Assembly: GCA_030681265.1 (NCBI GenBank)
Contig: JAUXXD010000181.1
Span: forward strand, 1 to 45,869
From: Candidatus Didemnitutus sp.
Lineage (GTDB): Bacteria; Verrucomicrobiota; Verrucomicrobiia; Opitutales; Opitutaceae
DNA length: 45,869 nt
Reading direction: 5' to 3'
The translations under genes and the position numbers were made by a program. This document shows, piece by piece, positions 18,665 to 45,869 of this stretch. The stretch's first letter is position 1, and every line of letters starts with the position of its first letter. The notes below the pieces were generated by a model, which saw nothing but the letters and a program-made list of their open reading frames with translations, did not search any database and was not told the DNA's origin.

Positions 18665-21472
18665 CTAGTGCGTAGGCTTTTGCGCGGGCTTTGCGGGCAA
18701 TCCGCTCTCCGGCGAAGTGGCTGGGGGCGGGTCTGGTTGATTCTTAGGGGCGTCTCGTGTTGTGCTGGAGCCGAGCGAGAATGACCACGCCGGTTTGCGC
18801 ACGGGGCCGACTAGGCGGAGCTCGATGATACTGGCCAACGGATTCACGACGATGCCGACCAACCCCGTGATTAAGCCCCGCGAGCTTTCGTAGGGCCGCA
18901 GTCGGGCGGTGAAATTCAGGTCTTTTTCGATTAACCGATAAGTTCCTTTTCCCTCGATTGCGGCCGAAGGACCAGTGACTCGGAGATCGGAGAATGTCGC
19001 GTTGCCGTCGGCTAGATGAAAACTGCCGCGCATCGTATCTAGTTTCAGCGACGAAAAATTGAGCGACAAGCCGCTCAACACTTGGGAGAGCAGGCCGAAC
19101 AAATGAATCTCACCCAGATCAGCGCGGGTAACCTCCAGATTGCCGCTGCCGAGAAAACTGGCGAGAGCACCGGGATGACCTTGGGCAGAGAGGGCAAAAT
19201 TCAGTCGTCCACCGGTGGCGCGCTGCAACATCTTGTTATTCGTGTCATTGGCCGGTGCGCTGTTCACCTCGGCTTTTTCCCAATTGTTGAGCGCGGTGAT
19301 GGTGTGCGCCAAATCGGCGTCCTTGAGATAAAAATCGAATCCGAGCTGTTGCGCCTCTCCCGCACCTGAGAGATCGGCTTTGGCCGTGCCGATACCGCCG
19401 AGGGCTTGTAACTCGATTTGGTCGAGTCGAACCTTGTCCCCACTGACTTTACCACTGGTAGTGACTGACTCGATGGGGAAGCCGGCGTAAGAAAGTTTAC
19501 CGCTCGCGTGGCCGCGGAAACTCAACTTGGGCACCGCGAGACCGTTGGGAAAATCAATTTGTCCTGCCAACGAAAGCGCGGGTGCCTGCTCAAACTGCCA
19601 TGGTTGCAGCAATGTCCGCGCGGTCGCGCCGCCGAGACGCTCCAAGGCGAACGCGTCAAGATTGCCAGCGAGGTCAAACACCAGCGCGCTCAAGTCGCGG
19701 GACTCGGCATCGGCCACTCGCTTGAACCAGCCAGCGGCGTTTTGGGAGCCATTGGCGCGGCTGGCCTGCAGGTCGAAGATGTGGGCGAAGTGAGGCCGCA
19801 GGAAAATACGTGTGCGGGCCTTTGCGAAATCGACGCCCAGCACCACCGCCTCAGTCGCTTCCGTGCTGCCAAAATAGGTTATGCCTGCAGTCTGGCGCCA
19901 GTTGCCTTCCAAAGCGACATCCGCGACGGGCAACAACCCGGGGAATTGAATGCGTTCCCAGAAATCCAACCACCAATCGCTGCGGAACCAACCGGCGATA
20001 GTCGGTGGTTGCAGTCCTCCCCGGAGGAGCATGCGGAAATCCAGAGAGCTAAAATTCATCCAATACGAACCGCTCGCATAGTTTTGCCCAGCCGTGACGA
20101 AAGCGTCTTCGGCCAGAAAATTGCCGGCCGCATCGACGGTGATGGTGCCGCGAGTGGAGGTGACCTTGACGCCGTTGGAATCGAGATGGCCGCCTCTCAC
20201 GCGGGCGTGTAATTCCCGGAATTTCCAAGCGGGGCCAAACTCCGCCTGCGCATGCACTGTTACCGGATCACCGAAACGAAAATAGGGCGCCAAACGCGGT
20301 GCGTAAACCGGCAGCGTCGCTTTAACGAGCGTCGGCGAAACAGCGCCATCGAATGCAATCTCGGCCCGCTCCGTTCCGAGGTCGGCTTTGGCTTCGAATC
20401 CGAAAATCTCGTCGTGCACCATCGTGGCGAGGGTCGCGGTCACGCTGCCTGTTTTCTCCCATTCGAGAGCGAGCACCGGGGCGAGGAGCGATTGCTCCCA
20501 ACCATCGACGCGCGACGCGGCGAGCCGCAACGAGACGGCTGCTGGCCACGCGCCAAGGTCTGCGCTCAATTCGGTCGCCACGACCGCCGCAGTTCGTCCG
20601 GCCACGACCGTGCTGCGATAATCGAGCGAGGCGAATTCGAGCAGTGTTCGCACGGGCCGCTTTTCAGTGACGTCGAGGCGCACAGTCGTGCTTGCGGTCA
20701 TGGTGCCTAGCGTCAGCGCTTCCCCGAAAGGCCGCTGCACGGCGTCGGCGAAGAAAGTGATTTCGGCCAGATTGCCGATCCCCGGCACAAATTCCAAACG
20801 CGCGGCAAGGGAAGGATGCTCGAAGGCTTGGAGGGCCTCGATTTGCCGCAGCATCAGCCGACCGTTGAGCAGAAATTTGGTCAGACTCGCGGCGAAATTG
20901 GTGGCTGCGCCGGATGGGGTTGGCGGCAGGTGAAAATCTCCTTGTGCCGTGACGGTGAGGTTGCCGACGCGAAACGTAAGTTGGTCGATGTGTAACAGTG
21001 CGCCCTCGATGCGCACGGTCACTGCCCCATCGCGCAGGAGCGGGGCGGCGATGCCGGTGGGCGAGAGTGGTGCCGGTAATTGTAACGTCGCGCCATCGAG
21101 GCGAATTTCCTCGGGAATCGGCGATCCGGACAAGATCGCCCAAATACCTTTGTGCACGTAGGCGCTGTGCGCAACGAGCACGGGATCGGTGTGGGGCAAG
21201 ACCCGCACGCGCACAGCTTCAAGCAGCACTTTCCCGGTCGGATCAAAGTGCGCCCGCTCATAGGAGATCGCGAGATTAGCTGCGGCCAGATGGGCCTGCA
21301 TCTGCTTCAACACGAATTGCGGCACAGGCAATTTTTGAGCGCTGACGATAAATACCTGCACAGCAAGCAGCGCACCAAGCACCAACCACACACACCAACA
21401 CGCGAGCGTGCCCGCGCACGATAGACAAAATCGCGCGAGAGATGGAGCAGGCAGTGGGCGCGGCGGCTTCAC
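18665..21472 (-). CDS. AsmA-like/DUF3971-type envelope protein
   Basis: 935 residues. An N-terminal membrane anchor (about 12-45, FCLSCAGTLACWCVWLVLGALLAVQVFIV) is followed by a long, beta-rich periplasmic part. The C-terminal third has the AsmA family pattern: LEVTRADLGEIHLFGLLSQVLSGLSL, then FSSLKLDTMRGSFHLADGNATFSDLRVTGPSAAIEGKGTYRLIEKDLNFTARLRPY and GLVGIVVNPLASIIELRLVGPVRKPAW. AsmA/TamB/YhdP-type proteins form hydrophobic-groove bridges that carry phospholipids between membranes, or assist outer-membrane assembly. Tail is Pro-rich and low-complexity. Its start overlaps the stop of the DUF4340 gene by four bases, so it is the last gene of the ABC operon; this links the ABC machine to the envelope. 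Exact function unknown. Confidence 0.82.
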   Translation of the reverse strand: MKPPRPLPAPSLARFCLSCAGTLACWCVWLVLGALLAVQVFIVSAQKLPVPQFVLKQMQAHLAAANLAISYERAHFDPTGKVLLEAVRVRVLPHTDPVLVAHSAYVHKGIWAILSGSPIPEEIRLDGATLQLPAPLSPTGIAAPLLRDGAVTVRIEGALLHIDQLTFRVGNLTVTAQGDFHLPPTPSGAATNFAASLTKFLLNGRLMLRQIEALQAFEHPSLAARLEFVPGIGNLAEITFFADAVQRPFGEALTLGTMTASTTVRLDVTEKRPVRTLLEFASLDYRSTVVAGRTAAVVATELSADLGAWPAAVSLRLAASRVDGWEQSLLAPVLALEWEKTGSVTATLATMVHDEIFGFEAKADLGTERAEIAFDGAVSPTLVKATLPVYAPRLAPYFRFGDPVTVHAQAEFGPAWKFRELHARVRGGHLDSNGVKVTSTRGTITVDAAGNFLAEDAFVTAGQNYASGSYWMNFSSLDFRMLLRGGLQPPTIAGWFRSDWWLDFWERIQFPGLLPVADVALEGNWRQTAGITYFGSTEATEAVVLGVDFAKARTRIFLRPHFAHIFDLQASRANGSQNAAGWFKRVADAESRDLSALVFDLAGNLDAFALERLGGATARTLLQPWQFEQAPALSLAGQIDFPNGLAVPKLSFRGHASGKLSYAGFPIESVTTSGKVSGDKVRLDQIELQALGGIGTAKADLSGAGEAQQLGFDFYLKDADLAHTITALNNWEKAEVNSAPANDTNNKMLQRATGGRLNFALSAQGHPGALASFLGSGNLEVTRADLGEIHLFGLLSQVLSGLSLNFSSLKLDTMRGSFHLADGNATFSDLRVTGPSAAIEGKGTYRLIEKDLNFTARLRPYESSRGLITGLVGIVVNPLASIIELRLVGPVRKPAWSFSLGSSTTRDAPKNQPDPPPATSPESGLPAKPAQKPTH

Positions 21473-23466
21473 GGATTACCGCTCTTGCCTGTGGCCGGCT
21501 CGGGCGTGGGGGCCGGGGCGATGATCGGCGGACCGGGATCATGCTGCGGTGCGTAGGTCAAAGCAAAGAGGACATCGAGCAACTCCTGCGTGAGTTCAAA
21601 AGTGACCCCGCCGAAGTCCGCCGTGCCGGCGAGCTGCGTCGTGCCGCCGATGCGTTCAGTGAAGTAGAGTGCCGAGGTCACCGTTTGCGCGGTGCCACCG
21701 GTCAAGGTGAGCGCAAAATCGAGACGATAGCGCCACGGCACCGTGACACTGTTGAATTCGACTCCAGCGACGTCGAAGTTCGGCGAGTTAAACGATTTGG
21801 CGCGTAGTGCGCGCAGGTGGCCGAGCAGACTGACGACTTGTGGCCGCCTCTCGGTGGATTCATCCGCGCCGATGGTCTCGGCGGTGAGGGCACCCTCGGG
21901 TGGTGCGGCTTTTTGTAGCAGCACCGCGTTGGTGGAAAGGTCGGTCAGCGTGATTGCCGTGACGAGTGTGCCTTCGGGCAACTCGCTGAGCAGGCGTTGG
22001 CGGAAGTAACGCGCAACCGTCGGAATATCGGTCAGCAAATCGGGCGCGATTTGATAGACGAACGGCGCATGCGTCACGCGCGCGTAGGCCATGCTGCGTT
22101 CACCGGGACGTGCGCCGATTTGCAACGTCACGCTCGAAGGTTCGTTGGCGCGCGGGCCACCGCCGGTGGTAAGGCTCAAAGTGATTTCGCGTTCCGGACG
22201 ATTGAAGCCATAGTTTTCGAGTTCCGCAGCGGAAGGAGAGTCGCTGAGAAAACTCGTGGCACTGAGCAAGTGCAACCGTTTGAGGAAATCCTGCACCACC
22301 GCGGTATCGGCAGGGAGCGTGAGGGGCGCTTGTCCGGCGCCGTTGCGCACGATCAGTTGCCACGCTTCGCGGGCAGTGGGCGATTCGAGACGCTGGAGGT
22401 TGAACTCGGGGCGATTGGGCGCGGCAAAGGTGAAGGAGCTGACCGTGGACGCTTCAAATTCCAACACGCGTGGGTCGCGCAAGGTTTCTTGTCCACTGCG
22501 TAGGATATCGAGCAGGGCGGCAGGCAACGCGGTGACGAAGACGGCTGGTTTGTCTTCGAATTTTGCGAAGACCTCGACGAGTGCGGTGCCGGCGCTTTCG
22601 CCCTCGCGCGGTGGCGTGATCTGGCCGGTGGGTGCGCCGATGAGCAATGTCTCGCGGCGCGCGTTGCCTTCGAGAGTGACGCGGAGTTGCGGCGAATCGA
22701 GTCCGGTGCGGTCGGCGTCGGGGTCGCGCGGTTCGACGAAGCGTTTTGCGGTGAGGCTGTTGAGGGCGTTGAGGGAGACTTCGACGGCGTTCTTGTTGGC
22801 GCGGGCGAGAATCGGCGTTTCAAACCCCCAGCGCGCACCTTCGCGGCGCAGGCGGATTTTCAAGTTGGCGGGCGGCGCGGTTTGCAGGGCGAGCGAGCGC
22901 ACTTCAAAAATTGGCACCGTAAAAATCGTTTCGGCGCGTAATTGTGCGGTAGCGAGTCCGAGACTGTCGGCGACGCTGCGATTGACGACATGGATGCGCT
23001 CACCGTCGGGCGAGAGGATGTAGAGGCGATTACCAATCTCGGTGCGGTCGCCGATTTTGAGTGAGAATTCGCGCCTGCCAGAGGTGAAGGTGAAGACGAG
23101 GGCGGGCTCGGCCAGACCGTAGTCGGCGAGGGATTGGCTGCCTTTCTCCAGATCGGCGACGGCGAAACTGGTTTCGTGTTCGAGGAACTGCAGTTCGTTG
23201 AGGATGCGCGAGATTGCGTTGGGATTGGCGGGCCACTCGATCGGTTGGGTAAGCCACCAATTATCGGTGCGCTTTTCTGCGGCGAGGGTCGGTGCGTTGA
23301 CGCTGGTGCGGACGAAACGTTCGATCGTGGCGGCTTCGGGCGGCAGCACCCGGCGGCGCGCTTCAAGTTGGGCGCGCTCTGCTCGCCACTTCTGCTCGAA
23401 TTGGAAAATGTAGTAGAAGAGAACGACGTTGAGGAAAAGAAGAACGACTGTGACTTTGGAGCGCAT
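21469..23466 (-). CDS. DUF4340 domain-containing protein
   Basis: 665 residues from ATG 23466 (the open frame extends to 23877 as an antisense shadow of the GldG-like gene; the start at 23466 begins with the membrane anchor MRSKVTVVLLFLNVVLFYYIFQFEQKW). One N-terminal membrane segment, then periplasmic sequence. Repeated DUF4340 units are recognisable: DNWWLTQPIEWPANPNAISRILNELQFLE, DYGLAEPALVFTF, then LKIGDRTEIGNRLYILSPDGERIHVVNRSVADSL, and again later with LENYGFNRPEREITLSL and TLQIGARPGERSMAYARV. DUF4340 proteins nearly always follow a GldG-like ABC auxiliary protein, as here (11 bases from the upstream stop). Their role is unknown. Translationally coupled to the AsmA-like gene. Confidence 0.86.
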   Translation of the reverse strand: MRSKVTVVLLFLNVVLFYYIFQFEQKWRAERAQLEARRRVLPPEAATIERFVRTSVNAPTLAAEKRTDNWWLTQPIEWPANPNAISRILNELQFLEHETSFAVADLEKGSQSLADYGLAEPALVFTFTSGRREFSLKIGDRTEIGNRLYILSPDGERIHVVNRSVADSLGLATAQLRAETIFTVPIFEVRSLALQTAPPANLKIRLRREGARWGFETPILARANKNAVEVSLNALNSLTAKRFVEPRDPDADRTGLDSPQLRVTLEGNARRETLLIGAPTGQITPPREGESAGTALVEVFAKFEDKPAVFVTALPAALLDILRSGQETLRDPRVLEFEASTVSSFTFAAPNRPEFNLQRLESPTAREAWQLIVRNGAGQAPLTLPADTAVVQDFLKRLHLLSATSFLSDSPSAAELENYGFNRPEREITLSLTTGGGPRANEPSSVTLQIGARPGERSMAYARVTHAPFVYQIAPDLLTDIPTVARYFRQRLLSELPEGTLVTAITLTDLSTNAVLLQKAAPPEGALTAETIGADESTERRPQVVSLLGHLRALRAKSFNSPNFDVAGVEFNSVTVPWRYRLDFALTLTGGTAQTVTSALYFTERIGGTTQLAGTADFGGVTFELTQELLDVLFALTYAPQHDPGPPIIAPAPTPEPATGKSGNP

Positions 23467-23477
23467 GGTGGGAACGG

Positions 23478-24947
23478 TTAGTTGCGGCGAGTCCAATAAA
23501 CGAGTAATCCCAGCAGGGCAGCTGTGCCGGGCACGATGAGCAGGAGACCGAGGCGGAGTCGGGAAAGTTCCTCCTGCGAAAGTGTGAGTTGGAAACGCTC
23601 GATCGGACGGGCTGGGATGTTGAGTTGCGTGTCGCGGTCGGTCGTCCAGTTGACGGTGGAGAGGAAGAGGTTGAGGTTGCCGACGTTGATGATGCGATTG
23701 TTGGTCGCGAGGTCGGAGGTGCCGAAGACGGCGAGGCGGCCGCCGCGCACGCTGAGGGGAAGGTTGTTGGCGGGTTTGGTGCGTTCGGCGATGACGAGCA
23801 CGCCGAGTTGGCCGCGCAAATCCTGGCCGGGCGTGTATTGGGGAGGAATCCGCATGCGGTAGTTGGTCTCGCCCCATGCGCTCGAGCCGGTAACTACGAG
23901 CGTCTGCACGCTGATGCCGTCTTCAATCGGTGCGCCAGGATCCGCGCTGATGACGCGGGCCGAACCCACGAGCACGGGCAGTTGATTATTGATCAGTGTT
24001 TCCGTGATAGGATGACGGAGAAAATTGCGCAGGAGCAACTCGCCGGTTTCGGAACTGTAATCGCTGGCGGGCTCGTAAATCAAATTGTCGTAGGCGATGA
24101 CGCCCCAGTCGAAGAGCAGCATGTCGAGGCCGTGTTGCCGCATGGGGTCGAGCATGAGCACGACGCGACCGGCACGCGTTTGGAGATAGTCGCGCAAGAG
24201 CTCTTCCTCGAAACGCTGAAAGCGGCCCTGCTGGCCGATCACCATGACCAAGGCGGCATCTTCGGGCACGCGGCGCAACTGGGCGAGGTCGAGTGCGGCG
24301 AGGTCGAAATTGCGCTGGCGCAGTGCATCGCGCAGCACGGAGATACCGCGCTCGCTTACGTCGTCCGGTTGCAATTCGCCATGCCCTTGCACGAAGTAGA
24401 TTTTTTTGCGCTCCGTCGAGGTCACATCGAGAATCGCGGCGGTAAGCGCCGACTCGCCGCGAAAGGCTTCCCGTGTGACTTTGTTTTTGATGCGATAAAG
24501 TTCTTCGATCGTGACGGTGCGGCGGCGCTCCCCACTGATGACGACGACCGCGTTGGGTTGTTCGATGCCGAGTTCCTCGGCTTCTTTGCGCCGTTGGTAA
24601 ACATCGAGAAACGTCACCGTGATTTGCGCCGTCGCGTTGTTGCGCGAAGAGTAGGAATATTCGCGCATCAAGCCGGTGAGATCGCGAAAAGCTTGGGCGA
24701 CTTCATGGTTCTCCGCATCGTCCGTGAACGTGACAACGATGCGCACGGGCTGTTCGAGGCGCTTGAGGTAGGACTCGGTTTCGGCGGACAGCGAATGACG
24801 GCGACTCTTTGTCAGGTCGAAGCGCCAGGAATTGTTCAGCGCGAGATAGTTCAGCCCGCCAAAAAGTGTCAGAAAAAGAACGGCCTGCAGCAGCAGATTG
24901 ATCAGTCGGATCCAGCGCGCGGTGCGAAAACTATCGACGTGTTTCAT
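23478..24947 (-). CDS. GldG-like ABC auxiliary protein
   Basis: 489 residues. Membrane helix about 12-35 (WIRLINLLLQAVLFLTLFGGLNYLAL), a large extracytoplasmic domain, and a second helix near the end (about 463-485, LGLLLIVPGTAALLGLLVYW). The first part has the family signature (RFDLTKSRRHSLSAETESYLKRLEQPVRIVVTF) and the middle the GldG core (GELQPDDVSERGISVLRDALRQ, then GRVVLMLDPMRQHGL). GldG is part of the gliding-motility/ABC complex of Bacteroidota, but homologues with unknown roles are common in other phyla. Three bases after the permease, 11 bases before the DUF4340 gene. No sign of other gliding genes in the window, so gliding is not implied. Confidence 0.88.
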   Translation of the reverse strand: MKHVDSFRTARWIRLINLLLQAVLFLTLFGGLNYLALNNSWRFDLTKSRRHSLSAETESYLKRLEQPVRIVVTFTDDAENHEVAQAFRDLTGLMREYSYSSRNNATAQITVTFLDVYQRRKEAEELGIEQPNAVVVISGERRRTVTIEELYRIKNKVTREAFRGESALTAAILDVTSTERKKIYFVQGHGELQPDDVSERGISVLRDALRQRNFDLAALDLAQLRRVPEDAALVMVIGQQGRFQRFEEELLRDYLQTRAGRVVLMLDPMRQHGLDMLLFDWGVIAYDNLIYEPASDYSSETGELLLRNFLRHPITETLINNQLPVLVGSARVISADPGAPIEDGISVQTLVVTGSSAWGETNYRMRIPPQYTPGQDLRGQLGVLVIAERTKPANNLPLSVRGGRLAVFGTSDLATNNRIINVGNLNLFLSTVNWTTDRDTQLNIPARPIERFQLTLSQEELSRLRLGLLLIVPGTAALLGLLVYWTRRN

Positions 24948-24950
24948 CGG

Positions 24951-25712
24951 TCAGCCTTGCAACAATTTAGCCTCGACCCCGAGGATGCTGAAGATGAGGG
25001 CGAGGATGGAGCCCGTGAGGTAGAAAAACACTTGGCGCGTATCCACGATGCCGTTGGTGAAATCTTCCAAGTGGCGAAAGATTTGCAACGATTCGACGGT
25101 GTTCTTGAGGGTGAGAAAAGAGTCCTGTTGCAAGAGCGCGGACTCGCCGAAGAAACGCAACCCGATGATCAAACCAAACAACGCGGTGAAGCTCAGAATT
25201 CCCGCGACGGCCTGCGTGCGCGCGAGGGCGCTGGCCAGAATACCGACGGCGACAAAAAGCAATCCGCTCAACGCGATGAAAAGATAGCCGCCCAGCAGCG
25301 GCCCCGCGTCGATGAAGCGGATATCCCGCGCATAGTAATGGAGCACGAAGTGAAAACCCGCCGTCGAACCCCAGAGCAACAAGTAGAGAAAATACGCCGC
25401 CCCAAATTTACCCAACACCACTTCCGTTGTCGTGACCGGTGCCGTGAGCAACGTCTCCAGCGTGCCAAGTCGCCGTTCCTCCGCGAGGCTCTTCATTGTC
25501 AACAGCGGCACCATGAAAAAGACGGGAATCCAAAACAGTTGGAAGAACACGGCAGCCGGCGGCGTTTCCTGCGGCGTGCGACTGTAGGAATCGAGAATGC
25601 CCGCGAAGATAAAGCCCATCACGCCGAGAAAAAGCACCGCCGCAACGTAGGTGCTCGGATTAAAGAGCAACGTGCGAATCTCGTGGGAGAGGATGGTGAA
25701 AAAGTGACGCAT
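24951..25712 (-). CDS. ABC-2-type transporter permease, GldF-like
   Basis: 253 residues with six membrane segments visible by eye (for example TYVAAVLFLGVMGFIFAGIL, AAVFFQLFWIPVFFMVPLLTM, YFLYLLLWGSTAGFHFVLHYY, LSGLLFVAVGILASALA, GILSFTALFGLIIGLRFF and a final one near the C-terminus). The conserved ABC-2 pattern LTMKSLAEERRLGTLETLLTAPVTTTEVVLGKFGAAYFLY is typical of this permease class. It follows the ATPase by 27 bases and precedes the GldG-like gene by three. Substrate unknown; the gene order predicts one complex. Confidence 0.9.
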   Translation of the reverse strand: MRHFFTILSHEIRTLLFNPSTYVAAVLFLGVMGFIFAGILDSYSRTPQETPPAAVFFQLFWIPVFFMVPLLTMKSLAEERRLGTLETLLTAPVTTTEVVLGKFGAAYFLYLLLWGSTAGFHFVLHYYARDIRFIDAGPLLGGYLFIALSGLLFVAVGILASALARTQAVAGILSFTALFGLIIGLRFFGESALLQQDSFLTLKNTVESLQIFRHLEDFTNGIVDTRQVFFYLTGSILALIFSILGVEAKLLQG

Positions 25713-25739
25713 CGCGAAAGAGTAGGGTCGGTGGTGCGG

Positions 25740-26759
<1,020 letters not shown>

Positions 26760-34936: not shown

Positions 34937-37900
34937 ATGGTTGCTCGACCCGGTCTCTCCACGCGCGCCTTTGGCCGTGCCCGAAACTTTATTGCAGCTG
35001 GTTTGCTCCGCGCCGTCCTGTTGGGGGTCGGTTTGTCCGCGAGCATCGCGATCGCGCAGGCGCAGGCGCAGGACCAGGGCCCGGTGGCGGTGGTGACCAA
35101 CATTTCCATTTCCAGCTCGTTCAACAACGGCATCGGGCAGGACGCCACCGGCATCACCTACTGGTCGGATGGCTACTCCCTCTATCGTTTGCGCCCGACG
35201 GACAGTTTTCCCTCCACCTTCCTCACCATCGGCGGATCCGGCAACAATTCGGTGCAGCGATTGGGTGTGACCCCAGCCGGATTACTGATCTGGACGGGCA
35301 ACCACACGGTCCACCGCACCACGTCGTCGGGGCAGAGCACGTTGCTCGCCGGCGTGCTGGGACAGAGCGGCTATCGCGACGGGCCGGGGGCGCAGGCGCT
35401 CTTCAACTCCCCGCAAGGTGTGGCGATGGACAGCTCGGGGACGCTCTACGTGGCCGACACCAATAACCACGTCATCCGCAAGATCGCACCGGACGGCACG
35501 GTCTCGACCCTCGCCGGCCGCGCCGGATTCTCCGGCAATGCGGATGGAGTGGGGGACACCGCGCGGTTCATGACTCCGCGCAGCGTGGCGGTGGATGCCG
35601 CGGGCCATGTCTTTGTGGCGGAGGGCACGTCCGCCATCCGCCGCATCACGCCGGACGGGGTGGTGACGACGTTTGCTGGCTCGAAGTCGCTGTCGGGCCT
35701 CGTGGACGGGCCGCCCGGAGTGGCGCGTTTCAATGCCCAGATCCAGGACATCGCCTTCACTCCCAAGGGCGATCTTTACGTCTTGGAAAATTCTTCCACT
35801 CGCGTCCTGCGTCGTGTGAGCCCGGATGGCACCGTGACCACCGTGGCCGGCGTGGCGGGAGCGACCGCCGAGTTGCTGGATGGGGTCGGCAGCGCGGCCC
35901 GCCTGTCGCAGCCGCGCTGGCTCGCTGCCGGCGCGGATGGATCGCTCATCCTCGCCGATTCCTTCCGGCTCCGCCGGGTTCTGCCGGAGGGGCTGCCCTA
36001 TGCTCCGATCATCAACGTCCAGCCGCAGTCCGCGACCGGTGCGCTCGGCCGCACTGTCACTCTGGGCGTCACGGCCTTCGGTTCGCCTGCACCCTCCTAT
36101 TCCTGGCGCAAGAACGGCAGTCTCATCGCCGGCACCGGTGGCCCCACGCTCACACTGACGAATCTCACCAATGCCGATGCGGCCGACTATACCGTGGTCG
36201 TGACGAACAATCTCGGCTCGGTCACCTCCACCGCGGCCACGCTCACGATCGTGCCGGCGCCGACCAACGACGCCTTCGCCACGCGGGCCACTCTCAGCGG
36301 CACGCCGGCCTCGGCGGTGACCGGCTTTCTCGGGGCCACGCGCGAGACCGGCGAACCCGCGCACAACGGCGCCGGCGCGGGCGGTTCGCTGTGGTGGAGC
36401 TGGACCGCGCCCTCGACCGGTTTCGTCAGCGTGGATGCCACCAGCGCCAGCGTCGCCTCCATCGTGAAAATCTACACCGGCACGGCGGTGGATGCGTTGA
36501 CGGCGGTGCCCGCCGCACCCGCCTACGCGAGCACGGACACGGCCGCGCGCCTCACCTTTGCCGCCACGGCGGGCATGACTTATCAGATTGCGGTTGAGCC
36601 GGTGGGCACGGTCAGTGGCACCGCGCGGGTCAGCCTCGGCTACACCTATCTGGTTTCTCCGGTCGCGGGAAACAGCGCGTTGTGGAACGGCTTCGGGTCC
36701 ACCGATGGCACGGGCGGTGACGCACGCTTCAACGGGGCGCACAGCATCGTGCGCGACAGCACCGGCAACTTCTTCATTTCGGATAGCCAGAATAACACCA
36801 TCCGCCGGATGACGCCCGCCGGGGTCGTGACGACCTTCGCGGGCACCGCCGGCAACTACAACTATGCCAACGGCACCGGCGCGGCGGCGGCCTTTCGCCA
36901 GCCGCAGGGACTCGCCATTGACGCGAGCAACAACCTCTACGTCGCCGATTCTTGGAATCACTCCATCCGCAAAATCACCCCGGCCGGCGTGGTCTCGCTG
37001 CTGGCGGGCGGCGGTGGCGAGAGCAACAGCGGTTTCACCAACGCGTCGGGCGCGTCGGCGCGGTTCAATTTTCCCATCGGTGTGGCGGTGGATGCGTCGG
37101 GCAACGTCTATGTCGCCGACTACAACAATCACGTCATTCGCCGCGTGACGGCGGCGGGCGCCGTCACGACCTACGCGGGTTCCGGCACGGCGGGCACAGT
37201 GGATGGCACGGGCACGGCGGCGCAGTTCAATTTTCCCCTCTCGGTCGCCCTCCGCGGCAGCACGCTCTATGTGACCGAGACCGGCGGTAACACCACCAAC
37301 CTGCGGGCCATCAATCTCAGCAACGCCGCCGTCACCACGATCGCCTCATCCCCGCAGATTCCCTACGGTGTGCGGGCCGTGGCGGTGGATGCCACGGATC
37401 ACGTTTACCTGACCAACGGTTCATTCAGCCCCGGCTTTCTCCGCGTATCTCCGCAAGGGGCGGTGGCGCAGATCCTCGGCGGGCAAGTTTCCAGTCCCAA
37501 CGCCTACATCGACGGCGACGGCTTGCGCTCGACGTTCAACACACCCTTCGGTGCGACGCTCGATCCCGCCGGTAACCTCTGGCTCACCAGCTACTACACC
37601 ATCCGCAAGGCGGTGCCCACGTCGGCTGCGCTCGCGCCGGTGTTGATGAGTTCGCCGGTCGACCGCACGGTGGAGGAGGGCACGCGGGTCGCCCTCTCCG
37701 CCGCCGTGTTTGGCGGACCGGCGCTCAGTTACCAGTGGGCAAAGAACGGCACGCCGATCACCGGCGCCACCGGAGCGGGACTGGTCTTTGATCCCGTCGC
37801 GCTCGGCGACGCCGGCAGCTACACCGTCACGATCACCAACGCTTCCGGCAGCGTCGTCGCCGCGCCCGCGCAGTTGCAGGTGTTGCCCGCGACGACCAAC

Positions 37901-40900
37901 GACGCCTTTGTCGCCGCCACTGTTTTCACCGGAACGGGCGCGTCTGTCTCCGCTTTCAACCCGGCAGCCACGCGCGAAACCGGCGAACCGGTGCTCCACG
38001 CCACCGCCACCGGCGGCAGCCTGTGGTGGCGCTGGACCGCGCCGCACGACGGCATGATCGTGGCCGACACGGCGGGCAGCGGCATCCGCACCTGGCTGGG
38101 CGTGTTCACCGGATCGACCGTGGGTGCTCTCACTTCGCTCGGCACGACCTCGACCGACCAAAACGACACACCGGCCCGGCTCTACCTAAATGTGCTCGCG
38201 GGAACGACCTATCACTTCGCCGTGGATGGCAACGCAGGGGCCGTGGGCCTCCTGCGCTTGAACGTGAATTACGCCTACACCGTCACTGACGTCGCAGGTC
38301 TGGGCAATACCGCGGGCAGCACCGATGGCACGGGATCGACCGCCAGATTCTCCTCGCCCCAAGCGCTGGCACGCGATGTCGCCGGCAACCTCTATGTGGC
38401 GGATGGCAACAGCCGCACGATCCGCAAAATCACGCCGGAGGGCGCGGTCACCACGCTCGCCGGTGCGCCCGTATCCAACGCGTATGCCGATGGCACCGGC
38501 AGCGCGGCCCGCTTTGGCTATCCCAGTGGCATCACACTTGATCCCGCCGGCAATATCTACATCGCCGACTCCGGCTCGCAGACCATCCGTAAAGTTACGC
38601 CGGAGGGTGTCGTCACCACGCTCGCCGGTCTCGGCTCGACCAATGGCTCCACCAGCGGCTTCGCCGATGGCACCGGCGATGCCGCCCGCTTCAGCAGCCC
38701 ATCGCAGATCGCCTATGGCAGCGACGGGGCGCTCTACGTGGCGGACAATGGCAATCGCGTGATCCGACGGGTCACGCTCGAGGGCGTGGTCACCACCGTG
38801 GCGGGGGCGCCCGGGCAGGGCGGTTATGTTGACGGTCCGGGGGCGCAGGCGCGCCTCAGCAACAATGTCAACGGGCTCACCGCCGGAGCCGATGGTGCGA
38901 TCTATTTCTCCGATACCACCAACCGCACCATCCGTCGCCTCAGCGTGCCGGGTTACGTGGTGAGCACCGTGGTCGGCAGCCCCTCCTCGTCGAATGTCCG
39001 CGACGGCGTCGGCAGCAACGCCCAGATGGGCAGTCCGGCCGGGCTCAGTGCCGATGCCGCCGGCGTGCTCTACGTGCTCGACACCACCGCGCGGGTGCTG
39101 CGTCGCATTTCGCCCGACGGGCATGTCGTCACGCTCGCGGGTTTGAACGGTAACTCCGGCAATACGATGGGCACGGGCCCGGAGGCGCGATTCAGCAATC
39201 CCGTGGGGATCGTCGCCGCGCCTGACGGCACGGTTTACATCGCCGATTCCTCGGCGCACCTGATCCGCCGCGCCGTGCCCAGCTACGTGCCGCAGGCGCC
39301 GGTCGTGACGGGTGTGCCGACGAATCAGACCGTGCTCGCCGGCTCCGCCGTCACGTTCACGGTCGGCTACATCGGCGCGCCGACGCCGACCTTCCTCTGG
39401 CGGCGCGCCGGCACGCTCGTGGCCACGACCACGGCCGCGACGCTGGTCCTGCCCGCAGTGCAGGCGGGCGACGCGGGCAGTTACACGGTCGAACTCGTAT
39501 CCGGGTCCAACAGCGTCACGACTGCGGCCTTCATCCTGACGGTCACGCCGGCGGCGGCCAACAACAACTTCGCTAACCGCATCGCGCTGACCGGCGCGAC
39601 GGTGCAGACGACGGGCACGAATTATCTGGCCACCAGCGAGCCCGGGGAACCATTGCATTTCGAAGGTGAGGCCAACCGCTCCGTGTGGTGGTCGTGGACC
39701 GCGCCGGCGGACGGCTACTACCTGGTAGACACCCTCGGCTCCTCCATCGTCGCCATGGTGGCGGTTTACACGGGTGATACGCTCGCCAACCTCGTATCGC
39801 GCGGCTCGGGTCTGGATCGCGTGACGTTCGCCGCCACCGCCGGAACGACCTATCACATCGCCGTAGATGGCCGCGCCGGCGCCACCGGCCTCATCAATCT
39901 CCGTATCCAGGCCGGATATCTCGCCACCCCGTGGGCTGCGACGCCCGGTGTCGCGCCGCAGGGCGTGACGCAGGACACGCTCGGCAACGCGTGGTTCACG
40001 GCGACCGATCATGCGATCCGTCGGATTTCTCCGACCGGCGAGGTCACGGTGATCGCGGGCGCGGCGGGAACTTCCGGCAGCACCGATGGCGTCGGTGCCG
40101 CGCGCTTCAACTCGCCCCACGGGATCACCCGTGCGGCCGACGGCACGCTTTTTGTCGCCGATAGCGGTAACAATGTGATCCGCCGCATCGCCACCGATGG
40201 CACGGTCACGACGATCGCCGGGCTGGCCGGCTCGGCGGGCAACACGGCGGGCGTCGGCGGTGCGGCGCGTTTCAATTCTCCGCGCGGTCTCACGCTCGAT
40301 GCGACGGGTGAAAACCTCTACATCGCCGACACGTTCAGCCGCATGATTCGCAAGCTCGAACTTGCGACCGCCACGGTCACGAATTTCTCCGGCAGCGGCA
40401 GCAACGCCACGAGCAGCAGCCACGATGGCGGGGCGACCTTTGCCCGTTACTCTTCGCCCACGGACATCGCCCTCGCGCCGGATGGCAATTTCTATGTCAC
40501 GGACACCGGCATGAGTGCGGTCCGTCGCGTCGCGCCGGACGGCTCGGTGACCACCTTCGCCGGCGTGCGCTTCAGCACCGGTTTCACCGATGGACCCGCC
40601 GGCGTTGCCCGTTTCCAATCCTTGCAGAACATCACCGTCGAACCCTCCGGCTCGCTGCTCGTCTCCGACTCTCACGGCGTGCGCCGGGTCACGATGACCG
40701 GCGAGGTCATCACGGTGCTCGGCGTGGTCAGCTCCTCCGGCGAGGCCAGCGGTCTGGGCGACCAAGCGCGCTTCAATACTGCGCGCGGCCTCTCGCTCGT
40801 CGCGGGCGGCGGATTTCTGGTGGATGCGAACAACCAACGCATCCTGCGCCTGAATTTCGGTTCGACGCTCCTGCGGCCGTTGATCTCCCAGAATCCGGCA

Positions 40901-43900
40901 AGCCGCTCCGCGTTCACGGGAGATGCCGTGACCTTCAGCGTCACCGCTTTCGGCGTGCCGACCGGCCTTACCTACGTCTGGACGCGGAACAACACGCCCA
41001 TTCCCGGCGCCAACGGCCAGACCCTCACGCTCACCAATCTCGCGACCTCGGCCAGCGGCGAATATCGCGTTACCGTTTCGAATACGGTGGGCAGCGCCGA
41101 GTCCGCACCCGCCACGCTCACGGTCACCGAGCGACCGGCCAACGACAGTTTTGCCGCCGCCGCGCAACTCACCGGGGCGGAACCTTTCGCCGTGGGCACC
41201 AACGCTGGGGCAACCCGCGAGCCGGGCGAGCCGCTCATTGCCGGGCAGACGGGCGGCGCCTCGGTGTGGTTCCGCTGGACCGCTCCCGCATCGGGCGCCG
41301 TCATCGCCGACACCGCCGGCAGTGCCTTCAACACCTTGGTCGGCATCTACACCGGCACGGCGTTCGCCAACCTCGCTCCGCAGGCCAGCGCCGTGCCCGT
41401 CACCGTCGGTTCGATTACGCGACCCACGGCCGCGATGTTCACCGCGGTTGAAGGCACCACCTACTGGATCGCGGTGGACAGCGCCTACGGTGAAACCGGC
41501 GACATCCTCCTCCATCTCTCGTTCACCTACAGCTTCAGCACCATCGCGGGCTCTCCCGGTCTGGCCGGCGAGGTCAACGGTGTCGGCTCGGCTGCGCGGT
41601 TCCGGCGCCTTAACGCCTCCGCGCCGGACGGCCTCGGCAACATCTATATCGCCGACCTGAACAACCACGCCATCCGCAAGGTCGCGGCCGACGGCACCGT
41701 CACCACGCTCGCCGGCCTGCCGGGTGTCTTCACCAACGCCTACACCAACGCCACCGGCACGAATGCCCGCTTCAATGCGCCGGCGGGTATCGCCGTCGGC
41801 CCGGACGGTCAAATCTACGTCGCCGACGCGAACAACCACGCCATCCGACGCATCACCACGGCGGGCGTGGTGACCACATTCGCCGGCGCCACCACCGCCA
41901 TCTCCGGCACGGCCGATGGCACTGGCACTGGCGCGCGCTTTAACCAGCCGGTCGCACTCACCTTCGACACCGTCGGCAATCTCTTCGTGGCCGAATATTC
42001 CAATCACGCCGTCCGCAAGATCACTCCCGGCGGGGTCGTCACGACGGTGGCCGGCCTGAAGGGCACCTCCGGCGCCGTGAACGCCAACGGCACGGCCGCG
42101 CGCTTCAACGGCCCCGAGGGCATCGCGGTGGACAGCGCCGGCAACCTCTACGTCGCCGACCTGAACAACCACGCGATCCGTCGCATCGCTCCCAATGGCG
42201 ATGTCACCACCGTCGCCGGCCAGCTCGGCGGCACCGGAGCCAGCGACTATGTGGACGGACCGGTCGCCATCGCCAGGTTCAATGGTCCCAACGGCGTTAC
42301 CGCCCTGCCGGACGGCTCGCTGCTGGTAGCGGATTACTGGAACAACGCGCTGCGTAAGATCACGACCTCCGGCTACGTGCTCACCCTCGCCGGCGGCAAT
42401 GGCGCCGGCCACGCCGACGGCACCGGCCTCGGCCTGAAGTTCAATGGCCCGTCGCAGATCGCCTTTGATAGCACCGGTCGCCTCTACATCGCCGACCAGG
42501 GCAATCACGTCCTGCGCCGCGGCATCATTACCAGCGCGCCCGCCGCGCCGGACATCACGCAGCAGCCCGCGTCGATTCGCATCATCGCCGGCAGCAACGT
42601 CACGCTCACCAGCGGTGCCATCGGCAACCCATTTCCCACCTACCAGTGGCGCCGGAACGGTGTGCCGATCGAGGGCGCGACCTCCGCCACGCTTACGCTG
42701 ACCGGAGCGCAACCAGCCGTCAGCGGCAGCTACACGTTCGTCGCGACCAACACCAACGGCTCCGCGACTTCCGAGGCCGCCGTCGTCGAGATTCTCCCGC
42801 TGCCGGCCAACGACGGCTTCAACCAGCGCGCCCGCCTCCTCGGCGACAACCTGTCCCTCAAAGCCTACAATTTCTCCGCCACCGCCCAGTCCGGCGAACC
42901 GGAGCACGGCGGCGCACCCGCGTCGAAATCCGTCTGGTTCACCTGGACCGCTCCCGCCAGTGGCGACGTGTTCCTCGATACCATCGGCAGCAGCTTCGAC
43001 ACGCGTCTCTCCATCTATGAAGGCGCGACCCTCGCCACGCTGCAGCACCTCGGCTCCAGCGTGAGCGAGTCCGGCAAAAAATTCAGCAAACTGCGCTTCA
43101 CCGTCGCCGCCGGCAACACGATCCACATTGCCGTGGATGGTGTGAACGGCGCCAGCGGCGACTTCCGCCTCACGCTAGGCTACAACTTCGCCTTCGCCCT
43201 CTACGCCGGTGCCACCAACACGCCCGGCAACACCAACGGCAACCTCAGCCAGGCCCGTTTCAACGTGCCGACGGCGATGACGTCCGACGCCACGGGGAAC
43301 CTCTACGTCGTGGACACGGAAAACCACGTCATCCGCCGCATCACGCCCGCCGGCGTCGTCTCCACCTTCGCCGGCACCGCCGGCTCGGCTGGAAGCACCA
43401 ACGGCGTCGGCTCCGCCGCGCGCTTCAACCGCCCCTTCGGCATCACTGCGGACAAGCTCGGCAACCTCTTCGTCGCCGACACGAGCAACCACACCATCCG
43501 CAAAATCGTCGTCTCGTCCGCCACGGTTTCGACGCTCGCCGGCACCGCCGGCTCGACCGGCACCACCGACGACACGGGCGCCGCCGCGCGCTTCAACACG
43601 CCCCTCGGCATCGCCGCCGACGCGTCGAACAACCTCTACGTGACGGATTATAGCAACCGCACCGTCCGCAAGGTCACGCAGGCCGGTGTCGTCACCACCT
43701 TCGCCGGCACGCCCGCCACCTCCGGCAACCTGCCGCGCTACTTCAACACGCCGTGGGGCGTCGCGGTGGACGCCGCGGGCAATGTCTTCGTCTCCGACCG
43801 GGCCGACATCCGCAAGATCGCGCCCGACGGCACGGCCTCGTATTTCGTCGGCGACCAGAACGGCTTCGATGGTTATGCCGACGGCGCCGGTTCCGCTGCG

Positions 43901-45869
43901 CGCTTCTACACCCCCACGCAGCTGACGATTGATCCGGCCGGCAACCTTTACGTCGCCGACCAGCTCAACCACGTCATCCGCCAGGTCACGCCCTCCGGCG
44001 AGGTCCGCACCCTCGGCGGACATCCGGGCGAGCCCGGACACCTCAACGGCACGGCGAACGACGCCTTCTTCGCGCATCCGATCGGCATCCACTTAGACCC
44101 CGGCGGTTTCCTCTACGTCGGCAGCTCGAGCATGCACATCATCACCATCGGCCTGCGCCAGGCCGGGCCCCGCGCGCCGTTCATCAGCATGCAACCCGCC
44201 GACCAAGCCGTCACGGCGGGTGGCAGCGCGAGCTTTGTCGTCGTCGCCGCTGGCCAGCCCGCGCCGACTTACCAATGGCGGAAAAACAACGTGAACATTT
44301 CCGGCGCGACGAGCGCCGTGCTCACGCTGAACAACCTCTCCTCCGGCGACGTCGCCAACTACGACGTCGTGATTACCAACGCCAACGGCTCCGTCACCAG
44401 TCGCGCCGCGTCGCTCACGCTGGCGACCGCACCTGCAAACGATGCCTTCGGCAGTGTCAACCTGCCCAACGGCACGGCCGCAATCGCCACCGCCTTCCTC
44501 ACCGCCGCCACGGTCGAGAGTGGCGAGCCCGCCCACGCCGGCAAACCCGCCGCGCGCTCGCTCTGGTGGAACTGGACCGCGCCTGCCGGCGGCACCGTCG
44601 TGCTGCACACCCTTGGCAGCGGGGTGGACACGCGCCTCGCCGTCTATACCGGCGCCGCCGTAAGCAGTCTCGCGTTGGTCGTGGAAAATGACGACGCGCA
44701 CGCCGATGGCACCAGCCGCGTGCAGTTCACGGCCACCGCCGGCGTCACTTATCGCATCGCCGTCGATGTGAACGGCCCCGCGGCCGGCATCGTGCGGCTC
44801 AATCTCGACTACGCGCCCGTGATCGCAACGCTCGCCGGCTCGGCGGGCAGCGCCGGAACCACTGACGGCCCCGCAGTCAACGCGCGGTTCGACGGACCTT
44901 TCTCCCTCGCGCGCGATTCCCAGGGCAATCTCTACGTCGCTGATTCGCTCAACCACACGATCCGCCGGATCACACCAGAGGGTGTCGTCTCCACTTTCGC
45001 CGGTTCGCCCGGCCAAGCGGGCAGCACCGACGGCACCGGTTCCGCCGCACGTTTCAACACGCCGACCTCCGTCGCCGTGGACGTGCTCGGCCGCGTCGTG
45101 GTTGCTGATTTTGGCAACCACACCATCCGGCGCATCACGCCCGAAGGCGACGTCTCGACGGTTGCCGGATCGTCTGGCCAGACCGGCAGTGCCGACGGCA
45201 CCGGTTCCGCCGCCCGTTTCAACGGACCGCTCTCCGTCACCACCGGCCCCGTCGTCAACGGCGGCGGCACGATCTACGTCACGGACTTCAACAACCACAC
45301 CGTCCGTCGCATCACGACGGCCAACGTCGTCACCACGCTCGCCGGCAGCGCCGGCCAGTCCGGTTTCGCCGACGGCACCGGGAGCGCCGCACGCTTCAAC
45401 GGACCGCGCGGCATCGCTGCAGACGCTTCCGAGAATCTTTATCTGGCCGACTTCAGCAACCACACCATTCGCCGGATCACGCAGGCCGGCGAGGTTACGA
45501 CGTATGCTGGTTTCCCCGGCAGCGCTGGACACACCGACGCCGTCGGCAACTCGGCCCGTTTCTCGAGTCCCGCCGCCGTCGCCGTGGATAGTAACGGCCG
45601 CCTCCTGGTCGCGGAGCTCACCAACCGAATCCGACTGATTGATGGGAGCCGTATCGTCTCCACGATTGCGGGCACGAGTGCGGCAGGCAGTGCCGACGGC
45701 ACCGGGCTCACGGCTACCTTCGATGGCGCCATCGGTATCGCTGTCGGCCCGCAGGGCCGCTTCTACGTGGCGGATTACAACAGCGACACCCTCCGTATCG
45801 CCACGCCGTCGAATCTCGTCGTCGTGCCACAGACGATCACCTTCGCGCCGCTGCCAAACCGGCAGTTCA
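34937..45869 (+). CDS. Giant secreted NHL-propeller/Ig-like repeat protein, 3' end outside window
   Basis: More than 3,640 codons in one unbroken frame from ATG 34937, still open at the last base. Signal peptide about 1-47 (LLRAVLLGVGLSASIAIAQAQAQ). Seven NHL blocks of six recognisable blades each (about residues 55-355, 570-895, 1115-1450, 1660-1973, 2198-2532, 2752-3072, 3294-3622; blade core GNLYVADxxNHxIRKI, TTxAGTAGS, DGTGSAARFNxPxGIAVD) are separated by six units of an Ig-like domain (about 85 residues, YQWRKNGxxIxGAT, DAGSYTVxVTNxxGSV) plus a PPC-like domain (about 125 residues, ATxETGEPxH, SVWWxWTAP, DTxGSxFDTxLAVYTG). At the very end QTITFAPLPNRQF starts another domain type. Likely an exported adhesion or matrix protein. 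A/T-rich CATAATAATTTT (34866-34877) could hold its promoter. Confidence 0.93.
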   Translation, partial: MVARPGLSTRAFGRARNFIAAGLLRAVLLGVGLSASIAIAQAQAQDQGPVAVVTNISISSSFNNGIGQDATGITYWSDGYSLYRLRPTDSFPSTFLTIGGSGNNSVQRLGVTPAGLLIWTGNHTVHRTTSSGQSTLLAGVLGQSGYRDGPGAQALFNSPQGVAMDSSGTLYVADTNNHVIRKIAPDGTVSTLAGRAGFSGNADGVGDTARFMTPRSVAVDAAGHVFVAEGTSAIRRITPDGVVTTFAGSKSLSGLVDGPPGVARFNAQIQDIAFTPKGDLYVLENSSTRVLRRVSPDGTVTTVAGVAGATAELLDGVGSAARLSQPRWLAAGADGSLILADSFRLRRVLPEGLPYAPIINVQPQSATGALGRTVTLGVTAFGSPAPSYSWRKNGSLIAGTGGPTLTLTNLTNADAADYTVVVTNNLGSVTSTAATLTIVPAPTNDAFATRATLSGTPASAVTGFLGATRETGEPAHNGAGAGGSLWWSWTAPSTGFVSVDATSASVASIVKIYTGTAVDALTAVPAAPAYASTDTAARLTFAATAGMTYQIAVEPVGTVSGTARVSLGYTYLVSPVAGNSALWNGFGSTDGTGGDARFNGAHSIVRDSTGNFFISDSQNNTIRRMTPAGVVTTFAGTAGNYNYANGTGAAAAFRQPQGLAIDASNNLYVADSWNHSIRKITPAGVVSLLAGGGGESNSGFTNASGASARFNFPIGVAVDASGNVYVADYNNHVIRRVTAAGAVTTYAGSGTAGTVDGTGTAAQFNFPLSVALRGSTLYVTETGGNTTNLRAINLSNAAVTTIASSPQIPYGVRAVAVDATDHVYLTNGSFSPGFLRVSPQGAVAQILGGQVSSPNAYIDGDGLRSTFNTPFGATLDPAGNLWLTSYYTIRKAVPTSAALAPVLMSSPVDRTVEEGTRVALSAAVFGGPALSYQWAKNGTPITGATGAGLVFDPVALGDAGSYTVTITNASGSVVAAPAQLQVLPATTNDAFVAATVFTGTGASVSAFNPAATRETGEPVLHATATGGSLWWRWTAPHDGMIVADTAGSGIRTWLGVFTGSTVGALTSLGTTSTDQNDTPARLYLNVLAGTTYHFAVDGNAGAVGLLRLNVNYAYTVTDVAGLGNTAGSTDGTGSTARFSSPQALARDVAGNLYVADGNSRTIRKITPEGAVTTLAGAPVSNAYADGTGSAARFGYPSGITLDPAGNIYIADSGSQTIRKVTPEGVVTTLAGLGSTNGSTSGFADGTGDAARFSSPSQIAYGSDGALYVADNGNRVIRRVTLEGVVTTVAGAPGQGGYVDGPGAQARLSNNVNGLTAGADGAIYFSDTTNRTIRRLSVPGYVVSTVVGSPSSSNVRDGVGSNAQMGSPAGLSADAAGVLYVLDTTARVLRRISPDGHVVTLAGLNGNSGNTMGTGPEARFSNPVGIVAAPDGTVYIADSSAHLIRRAVPSYVPQAPVVTGVPTNQTVLAGSAVTFTVGYIGAPTPTFLWRRAGTLVATTTAATLVLPAVQAGDAGSYTVELVSGSNSVTTAAFILTVTPAAANNNFANRIALTGATVQTTGTNYLATSEPGEPLHFEGEANRSVWWSWTAPADGYYLVDTLGSSIVAMVAVYTGDTLANLVSRGSGLDRVTFAATAGTTYHIAVDGRAGATGLINLRIQAGYLATPWAATPGVAPQGVTQDTLGNAWFTATDHAIRRISPTGEVTVIAGAAGTSGSTDGVGAARFNSPHGITRAADGTLFVADSGNNVIRRIATDGTVTTIAGLAGSAGNTAGVGGAARFNSPRGLTLDATGENLYIADTFSRMIRKLELATATVTNFSGSGSNATSSSHDGGATFARYSSPTDIALAPDGNFYVTDTGMSAVRRVAPDGSVTTFAGVRFSTGFTDGPAGVARFQSLQNITVEPSGSLLVSDSHGVRRVTMTGEVITVLGVVSSSGEASGLGDQARFNTARGLSLVAGGGFLVDANNQRILRLNFGSTLLRPLISQNPASRSAFTGDAVTFSVTAFGVPTGLTYVWTRNNTPIPGANGQTLTLTNLATSASGEYRVTVSNTVGSAESAPATLTVTERPANDSFAAAAQLTGAEPFAVGTNAGATREPGEPLIAGQTGGASVWFRWTAPASGAVIADTAGSAFNTLVGIYTGTAFANLAPQASAVPVTVGSITRPTAAMFTAVEGTTYWIAVDSAYGETGDILLHLSFTYSFSTIAGSPGLAGEVNGVGSAARFRRLNASAPDGLGNIYIADLNNHAIRKVAADGTVTTLAGLPGVFTNAYTNATGTNARFNAPAGIAVGPDGQIYVADANNHAIRRITTAGVVTTFAGATTAISGTADGTGTGARFNQPVALTFDTVGNLFVAEYSNHAVRKITPGGVVTTVAGLKGTSGAVNANGTAARFNGPEGIAVDSAGNLYVADLNNHAIRRIAPNGDVTTVAGQLGGTGASDYVDGPVAIARFNGPNGVTALPDGSLLVADYWNNALRKITTSGYVLTLAGGNGAGHADGTGLGLKFNGPSQIAFDSTGRLYIADQGNHVLRRGIITSAPAAPDITQQPASIRIIAGSNVTLTSGAIGNPFPTYQWRRNGVPIEGATSATLTLTGAQPAVSGSYTFVATNTNGSATSEAAVVEILPLPANDGFNQRARLLGDNLSLKAYNFSATAQSGEPEHGGAPASKSVWFTWTAPASGDVFLDTIGSSFDTRLSIYEGATLATLQHLGSSVSESGKKFSKLRFTVAAGNTIHIAVDGVNGASGDFRLTLGYNFAFALYAGATNTPGNTNGNLSQARFNVPTAMTSDATGNLYVVDTENHVIRRITPAGVVSTFAGTAGSAGSTNGVGSAARFNRPFGITADKLGNLFVADTSNHTIRKIVVSSATVSTLAGTAGSTGTTDDTGAAARFNTPLGIAADASNNLYVTDYSNRTVRKVTQAGVVTTFAGTPATSGNLPRYFNTPWGVAVDAAGNVFVSDRADIRKIAPDGTASYFVGDQNGFDGYADGAGSAARFYTPTQLTIDPAGNLYVADQLNHVIRQVTPSGEVRTLGGHPGEPGHLNGTANDAFFAHPIGIHLDPGGFLYVGSSSMHIITIGLRQAGPRAPFISMQPADQAVTAGGSASFVVVAAGQPAPTYQWRKNNVNISGATSAVLTLNNLSSGDVANYDVVITNANGSVTSRAASLTLATAPANDAFGSVNLPNGTAAIATAFLTAATVESGEPAHAGKPAARSLWWNWTAPAGGTVVLHTLGSGVDTRLAVYTGAAVSSLALVVENDDAHADGTSRVQFTATAGVTYRIAVDVNGPAAGIVRLNLDYAPVIATLAGSAGSAGTTDGPAVNARFDGPFSLARDSQGNLYVADSLNHTIRRITPEGVVSTFAGSPGQAGSTDGTGSAARFNTPTSVAVDVLGRVVVADFGNHTIRRITPEGDVSTVAGSSGQTGSADGTGSAARFNGPLSVTTGPVVNGGGTIYVTDFNNHTVRRITTANVVTTLAGSAGQSGFADGTGSAARFNGPRGIAADASENLYLADFSNHTIRRITQAGEVTTYAGFPGSAGHTDAVGNSARFSSPAAVAVDSNGRLLVAELTNRIRLIDGSRIVSTIAGTSAAGSADGTGLTATFDGAIGIAVGPQGRFYVADYNSDTLRIATPSNLVVVPQTITFAPLPNRQF
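36010..44815 (+). repeat. Six-fold super-repeat (Ig-like + PPC-like + NHL propeller) inside the giant gene
   Basis: Ig-like domains start near 36010, 37630, 39290, 40885, 42540 and 44170, that is every 1.59-1.66 kb (530-555 codons). Each super-repeat is Ig-like, PPC-like, then a six-bladed NHL propeller; the next copy follows. Copies are diverged (blade and Ig motifs are shared, long exact runs are not), so old duplication is likely. The seventh propeller (44815-45800) belongs to the last unit, the first propeller stands before the first Ig-like domain. Confidence 0.85.

Follow-up and report, generated by a model that had tools for sequence, protein, structure and literature searches.

A giant, putatively exported protein of Candidatus Didemnitutus organized as a chain of seven six-bladed NHL propellers

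The ring fold of NHL repeats is represented by TRIM71, Thin, NHLRC2 and the designed Pizza6, each of which has one ring. Far larger numbers of blades in one polypeptide are also on record. In the survey of highly repetitive propellers by Pereira and Lupas (2022; PMC9218822), the largest blade count reported is 47, found in a fungal protein whose near-identical blades (median 81%) gave no good model. Teneurins and bacterial teneurin-like proteins, as described in PMC13018210, place a six-bladed NHL ring within a large protein of the surface or toxin type. The Candidatus Didemnitutus protein described here has seven rings in a single chain. It resembles the 47-blade fungal protein in its large count, but its blades are diverged and are grouped in six-blade blocks spaced by Ig and PPC domains; where that survey describes recently amplified, near-identical blades, its rings are diverged and conserved in order. 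In contrast to teneurins, a Pfam scan of this protein gives neither a YD shell nor a toxin part. Among the matches listed in the open-licence PMC literature, there was no paper on such a seven-ring chain or on the C-terminal module discussed below.

The window, i.e. the whole stretch of 45,869 nucleotides that was analysed, is an entire contig (C35) of the host genome G000, an Opitutaceae (Verrucomicrobiota) assembly of 3.56 Mb in 220 contigs that is 98.9% complete. A frame that starts with ATG at position 34937 runs on the forward strand to position 45868 with no stop up to the window edge (3,644 residues in the ORF list), and the gene is thus cut off by the assembly. The part present amounts to approximately 369 kDa and contains no cysteine. 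Two complete relatives are found in another Candidatus Didemnitutus genome (G003): an orthologue on contig C199 (JAMPXH010000042.1; locus L136), with a stop-to-stop frame of 3,853 residues, and a paralogue on contig C163 (JAMPXH010000030.1; locus L137) of 3,786 residues, or 3,776 from the first Met. The first residues of the window protein (34937..35068, + strand) resemble a signal peptide by eye, with a basic start, a hydrophobic core and an AQA-type end near residue 44, and the N-termini of both relatives look similar. Such a start, seen in all three proteins, agrees with the secreted polypeptide of the sequence-only reading and suggests that the giant protein may be exported by the Sec pathway.

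How many propellers does the chain contain? The NHL family (Pfam PF01436) is matched in 24 stretches with an E-value of 4e-155 (497 bits, cut-off 20), which places the protein in that family. The matches fall into seven blocks on the forward strand, at 35099..35983, 36656..37615, 38288..39277, 39920..40858, 41525..42526, 43193..44155 and 44822..45829. A blade profile made from 11 seed blades, all taken from the giant protein itself, detects 40 blades, with 5, 5, 6, 6, 6, 6 and 6 in the successive blocks and an iE of 0.012 for the weakest; the count is 39 when iE < 0.01 is required. Blade-sized gaps at residues ~65-119 in block 1 and ~804-853 in block 2 would accommodate two degenerate blades, and the spacing thus points to 42 blades (7 x 6). 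The position of the block 2 gap gives a weak blade match in the orthologue (iE 2.4e-4), and six blade cores can be seen by eye in every block of the unit alignment. The six blades per block noted in the sequence-only reading are upheld, 40 of them by profile and two by inference. By eye, blocks 2, 3, 5, 6 and 7 open with a VTTLAG-type motif of an outer strand, which is less clear in blocks 1 and 4 and lacking at the end of all seven. Such a motif at the start of a block with none at its end is the usual sign that the first strand closes the ring. The E-values, together with co-linear conservation in another genome, exclude a chance origin of the array. Antisense to the propeller repeats runs an open frame of 1,646 residues (window 38186-43126, - strand), most likely produced by GC-rich codon usage.

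The blocks are joined by six linkers, each consisting of an Ig-like and a PPC-like domain, all on the forward strand. The Ig-like domains lie at 35984..36247, 37616..37879, 39278..39541, 40859..41122, 42527..42790 and 44156..44419. All six correspond to Pfam Ig stretches, the fifth being seen also in a predicted structure. The PPC-like domains follow at 36248..36661, 37880..38293, 39542..39925, 41123..41530, 42791..43198 and 44420..44827, and are recognized by a WW core, the fifth also by predicted structure. For the whole protein, Ig_3 scores 219 bits (cut-off 30) and I-set 184 bits (cut-off 23.7), with six stretches each; every linker has an Ig core and, in its PPC-like domain, a WW core, and the six Ig domains are secure. 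The PPC label is plausible but weak. PF04151 scores 18.7 bits over the whole protein, short of its cut-off (25.9), and is matched at E<=0.1 by 11 of 18 single PPC-like domains (best 8.7e-7), and a profile of the domain finds two weak rows among solved structures, one of them a metalloprotease domain (E 0.21). Thus, of the six near-regular linkers of Ig-like plus PPC-like type that had been proposed, the number and the Ig half stand, and the PPC-like half is plausible. The spacing from one PPC-like core to the next is 527-556 residues.

Do the blocks close as separate rings? AlphaFold was applied to residues 2197-3073 (block 5, Ig, PPC-like domain, block 6), with an alignment of 18 equivalent two-unit stretches drawn from the window protein and its two relatives. 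The model has a mean pLDDT of 89.9 and a pTM of 0.58. With strands assigned to blades by hand, block 5 consists of model strands 29-64, 86-121, 142-176, 197-232, 255-290 and 309-335 + 2-10, and block 6 of 582-617, 637-672, 693-728, 743-776, 797-832 and 852-876 + 556-561. Both are predicted to be closed six-bladed NHL propellers, as had been supposed for all seven; for the remaining five, the blade count is what speaks for closure. The pTM of 0.58 gives limited confidence in the placement of one domain relative to another and in the extension of the chain. In a Foldseek search with the two-unit model, the top rows by E-value are teneurins, and the single-ring matches comprise TRIM71 (TM by target 0.87-0.88), Thin, NHLRC2 and Pizza6 (0.77-0.88 overall). 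Blade count, linkers and the predicted closure of two blocks together bear out the picture of beads on a string.

The orthologue is co-linear with the window protein and 65.2% identical to it over 3625 aligned residues; the paralogue is 48.4% identical over 3,544. Both share with the window protein the seven NHL units, the Ig/PPC-like linkers and their order, and both, unlike the truncated window protein, have a complete C-terminus. The comparison of super-repeat copy number in Opitutae that had been proposed thus gives seven units in each relative. Six blades in each of seven blocks does not extend to the paralogue as detected, where blocks 1, 2 and 4 are eroded, with 4, 3 and 3 blades at iE < 0.01.

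When did this array arise? In unit-versus-unit BLAST, every window unit (7/7) matches the same-position unit of the orthologue best, and six of seven do so with the paralogue, unit 3 being slightly better matched by unit 5; between the orthologue and the paralogue, the same position is best in five of seven. Units within the window protein are mutually only 34-47% identical. Same-position best matches combined with this low internal identity make it most likely, judging from the sequences, that the seven-unit array predates the divergence of the paralogues and has escaped homogenization. A very recent origin of the array is rejected on account of the same 34-47% identity, and with a co-linear orthologue in addition, misassembly of repeats is unlikely. 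The dN/dS ratio, calculated with a script of the Nei-Gojobori type, is 0.34 between the window protein and the orthologue, and 0.58 and 0.67 in the comparisons with the paralogue: the giant protein is under purifying selection. Blade columns 19, 21 and 36 are the most divergent between orthologues (0.64-0.68), a weak result, as the columns were grouped after the numbers had been seen. These columns seem to lie at the entry of strand A and the B-C turn, which might hint that those loops bind.

The genomic context was also compared. Upstream of the window gene are genes for an RNA methyltransferase, a DAHP-synthetase-type protein and CTP synthase, and a tRNA-Leu; with housekeeping functions and a tRNA next to the gene, the context names no partner. 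Within the 1-5 kb flanks of the orthologue and paralogue no conserved neighbourhood was seen, the tRNA being absent and the frames different. A short transposase-like frame lies downstream of the orthologue (L136 15183-15476, + strand; by eye). Elsewhere in the window, a 1,034-residue ORF (2022-5126, + strand) with HYR and bacterial Ig-like domains represents another probable surface protein, and DUF4340, ABC_transp_aux and ABC ATPase genes lie close together on one strand (21469-26759, - strand), an arrangement that presumably resembles a GldG/ABC-2 type cluster. A search of the host genome with residues 1153-2621 revealed neither a second copy nor a counterpart of the paralogue, the best match apart from the gene itself having an E-value of 1.5e-22.

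Among 95 genomes, the host included, some match to the giant protein is found in 77, but a comparable one outside the host in G003 alone (E 6e-254; the next genome gives 1.6e-97). The orthologue is present in one of 12 other genomes of the genus. In a survey of 384 genomes of the class, in which two candidate stretches were scored per genome and G003 was outside the sample, some match to such repeats occurs in 246, and none of the 383 genomes other than the host matches a two-unit query over its full length; the best match outside the host covers 522 of 1,098 residues at 41%.

Giant proteins with many rings do occur elsewhere, as seen in a comparison of 177 loci that was followed by seven further stretches from six places. 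In Flavipsychrobacter, a frame that runs off the locus on either side (L119, 1-16595; 5,531 residues or more) contains at least nine blocks of six and no fewer than 54 blades. It is similar to the window protein in its many six-blade blocks, but its linkers are of another kind and its blocks are 51-85% identical, compared with 34-47% for the window units. A Holophagaceae locus (L068) likewise has many blades in one chain, 44 detected in four groups of 11, again with different linkers. In another member of the class, a frame of 10,747 residues (G589:C10 1-36000; L228, L229) carries 42 blades, grouped by six into seven blocks as in the window protein, but the blocks are divided 4 + 3, more than 4,000 residues apart, and have other linkers. 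The layout is therefore not unique, given the complete six-blade NHL blocks in the Flavipsychrobacter and G589 giants. A chain of more than 40 blades had been called unusual, and what remains of this is narrower: what sets the window chain apart is that Ig-PPC linkers space it regularly and that its seven diverged rings are each conserved at their own position.

The end of the gene lies outside the window, and the sequence-only reading had placed the sorting signal, of the PEP-CTERM, T9SS or another type, beyond it. What do the relatives have at this end? In both, block 7 is followed by no Ig/PPC linker; instead there is a stretch that we take to be MBG-like and then, at the C-terminus, a module some 130 residues long. 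The end of the window protein (45818..45868, + strand) already aligns with the beginning of the MBG-like stretch, the rest being off the contig. By this alignment the window gene likely ends about 190-195 residues further on, and its own end would carry the module as well. No continuation of the gene was found in the host genome among 25 matches to the last 240 residues of the orthologue; a match at the start of contig C116 was considered as a candidate and rejected, the sequence there being the tail of another gene, and none of the other matches was seen to qualify.

The orthologue's module (L058 14528-14923) has no clear match in Pfam, NCBIfam or the sequences of solved structures. An alignment of the module retained 22 of 28 rows, after five short or divergent rows and one from locus L103 were left out. 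Among these 22 members the best library rows, all weak, are DUF3999 (E 3.7e-4, 2/22), EF-hand_1 (0.0096, 1/22) and Amuc_1099 (0.012, 4/22), and no sequence of a solved structure is matched at E<=1. AlphaFold predicts a compact fold (pLDDT 93.6) with helices over the DxDxDG/EYALG region, followed by the strands of a sandwich that ends in FFRLRVT-type residues. Foldseek and VIA-align return generic sandwiches of the fibronectin/Ig type, mostly over residues 44-131, with the helical part barely covered; the best match has Z 9.6 and rmsd 3.0 over 78 aligned residues, and no sorting domain appears among the 50 matches listed per search.

The host genome contains 23 matches to the module, in about twenty proteins. 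Among the host loci analysed, 20 of the 21 frames with a complete 3' end stop no more than 10 residues after the module; in a wider first look the distance was at most 15 residues in 26 of 28. Judged by a crude rule, the start is signal-like in 15 of 17 module frames whose 5' end is complete and in 11 of 49 other frames, a poor control in that many of the latter are probably not genes. In the phylum, 96 of the 193 genomes with a completeness of >=90% contain the module, as do two of three further genomes labelled Verrucomicrobia or Prosthecobacter; it is absent from 16 genomes assigned to other phyla. Could it be a variant of a described sorting signal? NCBIfam and Pfam presumably both include PEP-CTERM models, and NCBIfam also models of the T9SS CTD. 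No PEP-CTERM model from either library is matched within the last 240 residues of the orthologue, although the host genome has four exosortase matches, and the orthologue's C-terminus gives no match to a T9SS CTD model. SprA_N, as a marker of T9SS, was not found in either Candidatus Didemnitutus genome but was found in all four positive-control genomes. The orthologue is thus classed with neither kind of cargo; it does have a candidate C-terminal element, but one that matches no model of the two named types. Tentatively, and with the odds somewhat against it, the module might mark proteins for export or attachment by an outer-membrane route of Verrucomicrobiota that has yet to be described, with the seven-ring chain among the largest cargoes of that route.

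What might such a chain do? The reading preferred here, to which about even chances are given, is a Sec-exported protein of the cell surface or matrix whose long chain would serve for multivalent binding, i.e. a putative adhesin or scaffold. It would leave the cytoplasm through its signal-like N-terminus, and the C-terminal module would then mediate passage over the outer membrane or attachment to it. Along an extended chain, the rings would present their loop faces, seven different ones, each perhaps with a partner of its own: a polysaccharide, a matrix protein or another surface polymer. Separate partners are proposed because the units are conserved by position and have not been kept alike. 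The earlier suggestion of many copies of one ligand fares less well on this point, as units that are 34-47% identical yet conserved by position suit seven different faces better. The rarity of the orthologue in the genus and class is also consistent with a dispensable protein.

The main rival, though an unlikely one, is a passive stalk, in which the chain sets the distance to a terminal part and the propellers bind nothing. The regular spacing of the PPC-like cores would suit a stalk, as would the Pfam scan at E<=1, in which no lectin family appears. However, if the chain were a mere spacer, there would be no need to conserve seven different rings each at its own position, and the two complete relatives have no large head domain after block 7 that would have to be held at a distance. 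Could the rings instead sense a soluble signal, making the protein a receptor and not an adhesin? By eye, the frame immediately upstream of the orthologue in G003 looks like a response regulator, a hint of this, but the scanned neighbours of the window gene include no such frame and the Pfam scan shows no signalling domain, which leaves the receptor improbable.

The Pfam scan also bears on a secreted array of enzymes, in which the rings would be lyases or similar proteins of the Vgb propeller type. At E<=1 the 3,644 residues match 24 families, including many propeller enzymes whose scores pass the cut-off: Vgb_lyase (PF24684) with 140.9 bits (cut-off 50) and SGL with 140.5 bits (cut-off 26.3), in eight stretches each, and the PhoX, phytase-like and arylesterase families likewise. 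These are propeller families, however, and their scores, like those of the teneurin and Scy models, may well reflect blade similarity added up over 42 blades; the NCBIfam Vgb(A) model, which has a cut-off of 600, yields 31 bits, and an enzyme array is accordingly held to be quite improbable. Summation is also visible in the Scy models. ScyD/ScyE (NF033206) scores 154.6 bits, above its cut-off of 80, as a sum over 14 stretches of this very long repeat protein, which is not assigned to that family despite the passing score; the ScyF NHL PEP-CTERM protein (NF035926) stays below its cut-off of 350 with 327.6 bits, even though summed over 15 stretches. Kinship with teneurin-like or polymorphic toxin proteins, with the NHL part as an accessory, can be dismissed as highly improbable: the TEN_NHL model scores 377 bits (cut-off 27.1) and the bacterial teneurin-like protein 9ifo is the best match among solved structures by sequence and by Foldseek E-value, but the sequence match is confined to the NHL part (residues 1151-1348), of the FN-plug, NHL and YD shell that together define a teneurin-like protein the NHL model is matched while the 24 families include no YD/RHS repeat or toxin domain, and no toxin family is matched by the orthologue's C-terminus.

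For the putative binding chain, the significance lies in the propellers having diverged while their count and order were conserved; ring number and ring identity both seem to have been selected. The uncatalogued C-terminal module is a more promising lead than the chain. It constitutes a concrete, testable candidate for the means by which these bacteria deliver large proteins to the cell exterior.
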